Source: a virus. From it: DNA of 23,429 nucleotides. The notes below the pieces were generated by a model. The model was not told the origin of the DNA. It ran no database searches and saw nothing but the letters and a program-made list of their open reading frames with translations. Location of the stretch: the IMG/VR virus record IMGVR_UViG_3300030119_000214, positions 1-23,429 of that record, one strand, 5' to 3'. The position numbers and the translations under genes are program-made. Of this stretch, positions 5,837 to 11,635 are shown in pieces. The stretch's first letter is position 1. Each line of letters opens with the position of its first letter.

Positions 5837-6418
5837 ATGCGTATAGTAGAAGTTGTAGAGGCTCCAAGTAAAACGGCAGTATTCGCATTTGGCAGAATGA
5901 ATCCGCCAACAGCAGGTCACAAAAAATTAGTAAACACAATCATGACACAGGCAGGAGACCCTTACCTGTTTTTAGGGCCATCTAAGAGTGCCAGTCCAGC
6001 AACTGATCCATTAACACACGAGCAAAAAGTCAAATACGCCACAGCAATGTTTCCTGGAATACAATTAGGTGACAGTTCAGTAAGGACATGGGTACAAGCA
6101 ATGCAATATCTACAAAAAAGAGGATACACAGATATAATATATGTTGCAGGTAGCGATAGAGCAAACACATTCAATACATTATTAAACAGATACAACGGCA
6201 AAGACTATAACTTCAAATCTATTAAAACTGTGGACGCAGGTACTAGAGATCCTGACTCGCCCGGAATTGAGGGGATTAGCGCCAGTAAAATGCGTGAATT
6301 AGCAATGAGAGGTGATGAAAAGAACTTTATACGTATGACTCCATTGCCTACAAAACTAGCAAAAAGTATGTACGATGAGGTGCGTAAAGGCATGGGTGTA
6401 CAGAAGGAGCCAGCATAA
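5837..6418 (+). CDS. nucleotidyltransferase-like protein with capsid-targeting N-terminus
   Basis: A 193-residue member of the HIGH-type nucleotidyltransferase superfamily (NMN adenylyltransferase / cytidylyltransferase-like). Phe-Gly-Arg-Met-Asn-Pro-Pro-Thr-x-Gly-His spans 18-28, with Thr25-x-Gly-His28 as the nucleotide-binding signature. Ile147-Ser-Ala-Ser-x-x-Arg153 corresponds to the second signature (Ile-Ser-x-Thr-x-x-Arg). Such enzymes join an NTP to NMN or a phosphorylated alcohol; the actual substrate cannot be read here. Residues 1-8 (MRIVEVVE) precede the domain, resemble the T4 capsid-targeting peptide, and would be cut after Val-Val-Glu by a T4-type prohead protease. A good Shine-Dalgarno (GAGGAG) lies 5 bases before ATG. 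Similar genes are annotated as cytidylyltransferases in cyanophages. Confidence 0.8.
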   Translation: MRIVEVVEAPSKTAVFAFGRMNPPTAGHKKLVNTIMTQAGDPYLFLGPSKSASPATDPLTHEQKVKYATAMFPGIQLGDSSVRTWVQAMQYLQKRGYTDIIYVAGSDRANTFNTLLNRYNGKDYNFKSIKTVDAGTRDPDSPGIEGISASKMRELAMRGDEKNFIRMTPLPTKLAKSMYDEVRKGMGVQKEPA

Positions 6419-6421
6419 ATA
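6414..6421 (+). promoter_or_regulatory. late promoter-like box overlapping a start codon
   Basis: CATAAATA matches the T4 late core at 7 of 8 bases. It overlaps the ATG at 6421, so +1 would fall near 6427 and it could not express that start. It might serve the gene at 6627, or be coincidental. Confidence 0.35.
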
Positions 6422-6630
6422 TGAACATAGCAGAGTTGAAAAAACTTGCAGGCATTGGTAGTGAGCAAAAACACGAGACGCAACAAAATATCAGTCATAC
6501 TGCAACTGCTTTAAAGCAGAAGGAAAAACAACTAGGCTTGAAGCCAGGTGATAGAGAATGGTTTAAGTTATGGTTCAGAAGACCATATATGCAAGGTTCA
6601 TATACACCGTTTAGAGGTAGGAAGAAATGA
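6421..6630 (+). CDS. small late protein with Trp-rich basic tail
   Basis: A 69-residue protein. The N-terminus (Met-Asn-Ile-Ala-Glu-Leu-Lys-Lys-Leu-Ala-Gly) is a short helix of the kind that opens many proteins of this cluster. The C-terminal 35 residues, Leu-Lys-Pro-Gly-x-x-Glu-Trp-Phe-Lys-Leu-Trp-Phe ... Pro-Tyr-Met, form a module I recognise from marine T4-like phages, ending Arg-Gly-Arg-Lys-Lys. No enzyme motif. It is 2 bases after the previous stop and overlaps the next gene by 4 bases (ATGA). Probably a capsid-internal or structural protein by context; function unproven. Confidence 0.7.
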   Translation: MNIAELKKLAGIGSEQKHETQQNISHTATALKQKEKQLGLKPGDREWFKLWFRRPYMQGSYTPFRGRKK

Positions 6631-7346
6631 AGATAAGAAACATATTACCAGAGTTTAAAATTGCAGGACAACCAGATCCGAAGGATGCGGCTGACTACAA
6701 AGAAAAGATGAAAACTCTGCAACAGATTCAGAATAATCCTAGAATGAGAGATCCTGAAACACAGGCAACTATCGCAAAGAGAAAAGAAGAATTACGTAAA
6801 TGGGCAGAGAAAAATATGCCTAAAGAAGAAATTTTAGACATAGACGAAAGTGGTATCATGTATCGTGCAGGAGTTAAGAAGTACGGCAAAGAAGGTATGC
6901 GTAAAATTCAAAGTGCCGCAGGCAAAGGTGCTTCACATCAAGAAATAGGAAAAATTAAAGACAAGTATGTGAAAGATGATATGCAGGAAGATGATAATAC
7001 CGACATAGATATTAGAAAACTATTAGTAGACATTTCTTCCATGAAAGACAGAATTTCAGAATTGGCTATGGATGATGGCACAAAAACATCGGCCTTGACA
7101 GCACTTGGCAAGGTTGAAGATGACATAGCACAGGAAATAAAGGGATCATTTCCAGAAGACGCAGACATTGACGCACAGATGAAAGTTGACATACTGCAAT
7201 TCCTAAACACAAAAGTTGCAGGCATAGAAAGACAAATAGAAATGAAACCTGCATTTACACAAGAAGATATGGAAAACAAAGAATTTACTTTAAAATTAAT
7301 TGACTTTGTTCAGAAGAAGTTAGACGACAAACAAAAGGGTGACTAA
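6627..7346 (+). CDS. helical acidic late protein, possible prohead core component
   Basis: A 239-residue protein that is almost entirely charged helix with no Cys. It opens with MKIRNILPE, compatible with a capsid-targeting peptide cut after Leu-Pro-Glu. A conserved marine-phage motif sits at about 77-112: Met-Tyr-Arg-Ala-Gly-Val-Lys-Lys-Tyr-Gly-Lys-Glu-Gly-Met, followed by Ala-Gly-Lys-Gly and Ile-Gly-x-Ile-Lys-Asp-Lys-Tyr. The second half is acidic coiled-coil-like helix. Composition and targeting peptide suit an internal scaffold or core protein, but this is inference. TAATG overlap with the next gene. Confidence 0.75.
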   Translation: MKIRNILPEFKIAGQPDPKDAADYKEKMKTLQQIQNNPRMRDPETQATIAKRKEELRKWAEKNMPKEEILDIDESGIMYRAGVKKYGKEGMRKIQSAAGKGASHQEIGKIKDKYVKDDMQEDDNTDIDIRKLLVDISSMKDRISELAMDDGTKTSALTALGKVEDDIAQEIKGSFPEDADIDAQMKVDILQFLNTKVAGIERQIEMKPAFTQEDMENKEFTLKLIDFVQKKLDDKQKGD

Positions 7347-10969: not shown

Positions 10970-11370
10970 TGAAGGTAAACGAAGTCGTAGAAGGCACACG
11001 TTGTTGGAAGGGTTACGAAAAGAAGGGCATGAAGACCATGTTCGGAAAACGTGTACCCAACTGCGTTAAGAGAGAACACGTTGACTTCTGTGTTAATTGT
11101 TACAGTCTTGTTTTAGATGAATCCCTAGACGAAAATCTTAAAAAATGGTTCAAAGACAAATGGGTACGCATGGGACCTGGTGGCAAAATCAGAGGATCAT
11201 GTGGAGGCAAGTCAAAAGGTGAAGGCAAGCCAAAATGCCTACCTGCCAGAAAAGCCTACGCCTTAGGTAAAAAAGGCAGAGCAAGTGCGGCACGTAGAAA
11301 AAGAAGAAAAGATCCTAATCCAAACAGAAGAGGAAAAGCAATCAACGTTGCTACAAAAAAGAAAAAATAA
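10969..11370 (+). CDS. capsid-targeted basic protein with two Cys modules
   Basis: A 133-residue protein. It starts MKVNEVVEGT (cleavage expected after Val-Val-Glu, before Gly). Next come Cys-Trp-Lys-Gly-Tyr-Glu-Lys-Lys-Gly-Met-Lys and Arg-Val-Pro-Asn-Cys-Val-Lys (11-36), a known marine-phage module. Then Cys-Val-Asn-Cys (about 42-45) and a second module with Lys-Trp-Val-Arg-Met-Gly-Pro-Gly-Gly-Lys and Lys-Pro-Lys-Cys-Leu-Pro-Ala-Arg. The last 50 residues are over one third Arg/Lys. The six Cys plus basic tail suggest metal-stabilised DNA binding in the head (inference). Confidence 0.75.
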   Translation: MKVNEVVEGTRCWKGYEKKGMKTMFGKRVPNCVKREHVDFCVNCYSLVLDESLDENLKKWFKDKWVRMGPGGKIRGSCGGKSKGEGKPKCLPARKAYALGKKGRASAARRKRRKDPNPNRRGKAINVATKKKK

Positions 11371-11507
11371 TGAAAATAAGAAATAGACAAAGGAACGTAC
11401 CTTACTTAATGCCTGTAAAAAATGATATCACTAGATTTTACATGAAAGTTAAAAGCAAAGTTAATTTTTATTCATGGTCTATTAGGAATAAACATAAAAC
11501 AGCATAA
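11370..11507 (+). CDS. tiny basic protein, unknown
   Basis: A 45-residue Arg/Lys/Asn-rich protein (starts MKIRNRQRNVPYL). It has no Cys and no membrane segment. The N-terminus starts like the targeting peptides but lacks the Glu needed for cleavage. It is held between two genes by TAATG overlaps on both sides, which supports it being translated. Confidence 0.6.
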   Translation: MKIRNRQRNVPYLMPVKNDITRFYMKVKSKVNFYSWSIRNKHKTA

Positions 11508-11635
11508 TGAAAATTGCGGAAGTTGTTTTAGAGAAGTGGTCAAAAAAATATAAAAAATCAATCAATTGTTCAAATCCAAAAGGCTTTTCACAAAAAGCAC
11601 ACTGCGCCGGCAGAAAAAAACGCAAGTCAAAATAA
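11507..11635 (+). CDS. tiny capsid-targeted basic peptide with Cys pair
   Basis: A 42-residue protein: MKIAEVVLE resembles a capsid-targeting peptide, followed by Lys-Trp-Ser-Lys-Lys-Tyr-Lys-Lys-Ser-Ile-Asn-Cys-Ser-Asn-Pro-Lys-Gly-Phe-Ser-Gln and a second Cys at 33, ending in a Lys/Arg run. The Ser-Ile-Asn-Cys ... Gly-Phe-Ser-Gln-Lys-Ala-His-Cys module is familiar from marine T4-like phages. Two Cys and a His could hold a metal. Last gene of the late cluster. Confidence 0.7.
   Translation: MKIAEVVLEKWSKKYKKSINCSNPKGFSQKAHCAGRKKRKSK

Follow-up and report, generated by a model that had tools for sequence, protein, structure and literature searches.

Probable T4-type head-targeting tags on an enzyme-containing gene cluster of an uncultured marine phage

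The 23.4-kb fragment of uncultured marine phage DNA analysed here in its full length of 23,429 nucleotides (a virus record; hereafter the window) raises the question of why a run of genes between positions 5837 and 11635 should encode proteins with such similar first residues. A first-pass annotation had proposed a late cluster whose varied products are packed into the phage head by T4-like targeting peptides. The seven N-termini that it listed are all found, in the genes starting at 5837, 6627, 7346, 9297, 9484, 10969 and 11507, with Glu at residue 8, 9, 8, 10, 9, 8 and 9, respectively. The attribute "late" is unsupported, as the late promoter TATAAATA occurs once in the window against 2.1 expected occurrences. 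The DNA polymerase (14852–17521) has its nearest cultured counterparts in Phosso (49%), Vibrio phage 2.275.O (44%) and PBECO4/slurp01 (43%), all of them jumbo phages from the T4-related RaK2/121Q group. The viral collection is rich in relatives of the window, from near-identical to more distant ones. Judged by eye, the region upstream of the cluster (1016–4572) contains DnaJ-like, peptide-deformylase-like and Clp/AAA+ genes, and a peroxiredoxin-like gene lies downstream (12424–12966).

Whether the resemblance exceeds chance was assessed with a strict tag pattern, the regular expression ^M[KR].?h.[EDNQ](h)...[hA].E (h, hydrophobic), which was written from T4 IPII and IPIII and not from the window. 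It matches 6 of the 39 called window genes, all six inside 5837–11635, where shuffling of residues 2–14 leads one to expect 0.06 matches, or 0.10 if residue 2 is kept. The seventh tagged gene, 9297, escaped the strict search only through the gene caller's choice of an internal start; in its orthologues the MRYK... start is kept in six distinct N-termini. From the 262 genes of T4 the pattern retrieved IPII, IPIII and gp61.1, together with two probable chance matches. In relatives, where the first-pass annotation had recommended a motif search, a slightly wider pattern matched 33/151 genes within 6.5 kb of the nucleotidyltransferase gene and 16/1095 of the remaining genes on eight related contigs, an odds ratio of 19 (p 1e-20, inflated by the relatedness of the contigs). 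These matches outside the cluster are what one would point to in arguing that the shared N-termini carry no signal and arise incidentally where start regions are A+T-rich and N-termini short and hydrophobic-acidic. We hold this already disfavoured explanation to be highly improbable, given the six matches found against the 0.06–0.10 obtained from shuffles, the exchange of residues under a constant pattern and Glu, and the T4-type form of the tags on virion-detected homologues (see below). Codon bias and whole-gene duplication were rejected as causes, since the shuffles fail to give the pattern and the proteins have unrelated bodies.

All genes of the cluster are encoded on the + strand. The first (5837–6418) specifies a nucleotidyltransferase of the HIGH superfamily with an NMNAT/PPAT-like fold (phrog_3041 cytidyltransferase, E 2.5e-48), and its tag MRIVEVVE (5837–5860) is conserved in orthologues. 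The superfamily motifs, of the types [T/H]xGH and ISxSxxR and carried on a Rossmann-like fold, are present as GRMNPPTAGH and ISASKMR (MSASKMR in most) and conserved in 26 sequences. The best folds in Foldseek were NadD and PPAT, with a TM of about 0.6; NAD and CoA metabolism are thus candidate pathways according to the structural model, the fold matches failing to separate the substrates. A PDB sequence search with the profile of this enzyme returned only a weak S-layer match, which was taken as chance. The strict pattern is also found in two tagged proteins of unknown function, encoded at 6627–7346 (tag MKIRNILPE, 6627–6653; orthologues MKLIDFITE and MKLRDFIRE) and 7346–7777 (MRFHELLE, 7346–7369; orthologue MRFQELIE). 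The tagged small basic protein at 9297–9479 has the tag MRYKDIKVVE (9297–9326), and the orthologous starts are conserved. A further small protein that matches the strict pattern (9484–9741) combines the tag MKIREIISE (9484–9510) with a copy of a capsid-protein junction, VASAGATSAGSIATV (9511–9555), to which we return below. The strict pattern likewise marks a Cys-rich basic protein (10969–11370; tag MKVNEVVE, 10969–10992), which comprises a CWKGY module and a basic C-terminal module and whose orthologous tags drift around a fixed Glu, and a Cys-containing basic protein of 42 aa (11507–11635; tag MKIAEVVLE, 11507–11533; orthologues MKVAEIILE and MLIREITE), the module of which lacks the tag in some close relatives. 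Most of the presumed cargo proteins of the window are strongly basic. Upstream of the cluster, the protein encoded at 4963–5550 ends in a basic Cys module, KKSNPARRRSFRARHNCDNPGPRTKARYWSCRKW, that is also present in HTVC008M (109011–109412) and in the related contig G010.

Three further genes, 6421, 7777 and 9860, had been regarded as weaker variants of the tag, and none of them matches the pattern. The small basic protein encoded at 6421–6630 starts with MNIAELKKLAGI and has no hydrophobic-x-Glu among its first 12 residues; its orthologues start with MDIKTLQRLAGINE, which is not T4-like. The same 12 residues also lack this site in the large basic protein at 9860–10969 (phrog_38880/727), which begins with MKFKEMSGDG and whose C-terminal module, DACYHKVRSRYKVWPSAYASGALVQCRKKGAANWG, recurs in the virion protein gp160 of cyanophage S-CREM2. 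The product of 7777–8670 contains a 5'-nucleotidase NT5C (HAD) domain (PF06941, E 1.6e-6; 28.6 bits, above the cut-off of 24.8) and a basic C-terminus. Its weak tag-like start MRLSEIS opens a stretch, MRLSEISRTI...LYNE|N, in which the first half is targeting-like and the sole candidate cut lies near residue 20, somewhat resembling T4 IPI (MKTFKEF...TITE). Of the two enzyme domains that the cluster was thought to contribute, the nucleotidyltransferase is tagged, and the nucleotidase has a weak tag of its own in the window; in the relatives G010, G019 and G023 the 5'-nucleotidase domain occurs inside clearly tagged proteins. The polyvalent proteins of phages and plasmids combine several enzyme domains in an injected polypeptide, whereas no window protein shows more than one recognised domain. 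A likeness to that class exists only in a tagged 1184-aa protein of G023 (33904–37458), in which 5'-nucleotidase and poly(A)-polymerase/CCA-type domains are joined to a basic C-terminal module.

Comparison with the relatives revealed that the short N-terminal peptide behaves as a separate module. The nucleotidyltransferase tags vary (MRIVEVVE, MLITEIVE, MFLRELFE, MRLRQLTE, MRIRQITE, etc.) and always end in Glu; the next residue is usually Ala or Ser, and the catalytic domain (TAVFAFGRMNPPT) begins a few residues further on. Several more distant homologues have no tag, their N-terminus coinciding with the start of the domain, and in the predicted structure residues 1–5 are disordered and confidence sets in at about residue 11. 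Tags that drift around a fixed Glu also precede the sequences GTRCWKGY, GVGRI, DYHYG and FK...HYR and, in part of the relatives, WSKKYKK. The pattern is kept in at least five window families, and judging from these sequences it is one signal common to unrelated protein bodies. Tagged or near-tagged proteins of the relatives also include a RimK-like ATP-grasp, a zeta/AAA kinase, a PG-binding protein and DUF6267 proteins in which a ligase-like KWDG motif occurs. T4-type tags are also borne by a RimK-like ATP-grasp protein, a DUF6267 protein with the KWDG motif and a zeta/AAA kinase of Methylophilales phage Melnitz (loci 82–1131, 13281–14528 and 65855–66523).

According to mutagenesis of the T4 capsid targeting sequence (CTS), targeting depends mainly on residues 4 and 7 and processing on residues 8 and 10 (PMC9026906). 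The window tags match this arrangement in the succession of their hydrophobic residues and Glu, and cleavage after the tag Glu is predicted. The protease that such cleavage would call for, a Peptidase_S77 of the gp21 type, is encoded along with a gp23-type capsid protein in G010, G019, G023 and G025, which have the polymerase and the cluster in common with the window; in G025 the cluster, the protease and the capsid protein are located on a single 105-kb contig. Neither the window nor the 148-kb relative G005 nor most of the contigs gave a match in Peptidase_S77 searches, which is uninformative because all of these are fragments. The corresponding protease and capsid genes of the window phage would lie outside its 23.4 kb.

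Are such proteins present in virions? For homologues, others have shown this with purified particles: counterparts of the nucleotidyltransferase were reported in the virion proteomes of S-CREM2 (gp154; PMC10665884), S-SZBM1 (S-SZBM1_140; PMC9146016) and S-SCSM1 (SSCSM1_91; PMC9602691). In their passages on this enzyme these papers suggest its encapsidation and name no targeting peptide. The translated homologues all begin with a tag of the T4 type, MKNFSSFLTE|ADE in S-CREM2, MRFRQFIIE|AVA in S-SZBM1 and MKSFLQFLKE|AAE in S-SCSM1. Untagged homologues, in a contrast that spans only five phages and in which detection by mass spectrometry may reflect carry-over or contamination, are absent from the virion lists of CBB (CBB_73) and phAPEC6 (judged from gene order). 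Cluster neighbours of the cyanophage enzymes were virion-detected as well, and S-CREM2 gp160, another protein identified by mass spectrometry, unites modules of the window proteins 9484, 9860 and 10969 in one chain. The 69-aa virion protein SSCSM1_93 (MK867354, 91626–91835) has a CTS-like stretch, KKRTFKEFLEYIE, at its C-terminal end. In CBB, an N-terminal hydrophobic-x-Glu followed by a small residue was found in 10/34 virion proteins versus 18/166 others (p 0.008); the ten include CBB_298 and CBB_299 and at least one apparent chance case, CBB_236 from the baseplate region.

A more restricted interpretation would be that only part of the tagged proteins are packaged, the other tags decaying or having another role, and that packaging of the cluster also uses other signals. 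In the equivalent cyanophage clusters, several proteins detected in virions indeed lack an N-terminal tag, the CBB virion list shows no significant enrichment of the strict pattern (1/34 versus 2/166), and the nucleotidase, 6421 and 9860 have no proper tag. We consider this interpretation unlikely; against it speaks that at least five window families maintain the tag by its pattern. Head packaging by a T4-type tag is very probably the best explanation of the cluster as judged from its sequences, and the earlier proposal of a varied, packaged set of proteins including an enzyme is well supported by the conserved modular tag, the protease in the relatives, the virion homologues and the modules united in gp160.

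According to this explanation, the cluster would encode cargo carried inside the head of a T4-related marine jumbo phage. The tags of 8–10 residues, Met-[Lys/Arg]-hydrophobic-x-acid-hydrophobic-hydrophobic-(x)-Glu, would dock the proteins on the prohead core; a gp21-type protease would then cut after the Glu, and the mature, mostly basic proteins would stay embedded with the DNA. By analogy to T4 Alt and IPI, the cargo might be delivered into the cell together with the genome and be active before phage genes are expressed; the nucleotidyltransferase would then have a pool of nucleotides or of a cofactor, for instance NAD, as its target. Alternatively, the tagged proteins could be packaged and work in the head itself, in DNA condensation or core and shell assembly, without being injected, and the enzymes could act mainly in the producing cell. 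The basic character of most of the cargo, the capsid-junction copy in 9484 and the basic modules of the virion protein gp160 would fit such a role, which we regard as possible and on the whole rather doubtful: a nucleotidyltransferase with conserved active-site motifs makes little sense as a structural part, and injection does take place in the case of T4 Alt and IPI, whose tags are of this kind (PMC9026906, PMC3012670).

The packaged and injected cargo thus envisaged resembles IPI–IPIII and Alt of T4 in the short hydrophobic N-terminal peptide with its terminal hydrophobic-x-Glu gp21 site and in the varied basic cargo that includes an enzyme (Alt in T4). It differs in that the window tags mostly have 8–9 residues, in that the cargo belongs to other families (a nucleotidyltransferase, Cys/basic modules) and in that it is encoded in one compact cluster of a marine jumbo phage. 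The NMNAT-like or cytidylyltransferase virion proteins of S-CREM2, S-SZBM1 and S-SCSM1 are homologous enzymes with a T4-type N-terminal tag that have been detected in virions; they belong to phages of other hosts and share about 40% identity. Ejection proteins of phiKZ-like giant phages such as SPN3US are also head cargo with N-terminal propeptides cut by the prohead protease, but most of these propeptides are longer than 100 residues and they are cut at a different motif (PMC5694885). The tag provides a sequence-level reason for the repeated finding of NMNAT-like enzymes in cyanophage virions, and inspection of the first 10–20 residues offers a simple rule by which many uncultured marine phages could be surveyed for head cargo. 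It further suggests that such phages deliver enzymes acting on nucleotides or cofactors ahead of any phage gene expression.

What, finally, is the sequence behind the tag of the 9484 protein? It copies the residues found in the major capsid protein behind its propeptide cut (ASAGATSAGSIATV). Capsid proteins of relatives have, at the site equivalent to this cut in gp23, the sequences NE|TATAGSTSAGNVATL (G010), AE|AATAGATSAGNVATL (G025) and RE|SATAGATSAGNIATL (CBB), and a six-frame regular-expression search of the analysed sequences recovered this element only in capsid and cluster-type proteins. All called proteins of each phage were then compared with its own capsid junction. The best match was a cluster-type protein in G010 (score 54), G019 (51) and G025 (67), CBB_293 in CBB (47), and in phAPEC6 a 63-aa homologue whose score of 45 equals the best shuffle. 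In T4 it was gp61.1 (69; next 39; shuffles 37 ± 3.5) and, in partial proteomes, it was the virion proteins gp160 of S-CREM2 (95; next 32) and SSCSM1_97 of S-SCSM1 (83; next 29). Best matches in HTVC008M, Melnitz and G020 stayed within the shuffle range, and that in G023, a tail-fibre-like protein, was taken as chance; tblastn with the S-CREM2 copy alone, a short query, found only itself.

T4 gene 61.1 (NC_000866, 18966–19130) has the same layout as 9484: its product opens with MKTFKEFIKE, which is CTS-like, and goes on with a copy of the mature gp23 N-terminus. In contrast to gp61.1, 9484 copies a jumbo-type capsid sequence; virion evidence for gp61.1 was not found here. More than 1,400 phage records match a gp61.1 query, in some cases because of the capsid protein itself. 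In a few annotations gp61.1 is named a major-capsid-domain protein. No discussion of the copy was found in the literature searched; it is a new element here and the most novel part of the finding. We tentatively propose, with the balance leaning slightly to the negative, that in T4, marine cyanophages and RaK2-like and marine jumbo phages small head-cargo modules copy the phage's own mature capsid N-terminus behind a tag or protease site. Since the copy follows the capsid sequence of each lineage, it would probably use the same inner-shell binding or processing site; it would then bind where the capsid N-terminus binds, and might anchor or position cargo or time maturation. The copy draws attention to an aspect of T4-type head assembly that has been little studied and that extends from T4 gp61.1 to jumbo phages. 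Larger cluster proteins (loci L133, at G019 130102–131991, L027, L034, L041, L057 and L065) also have the capsid-junction module fused to their C-terminal part, directly behind a Glu, and this position suggests that the Glu marks an internal protease site.
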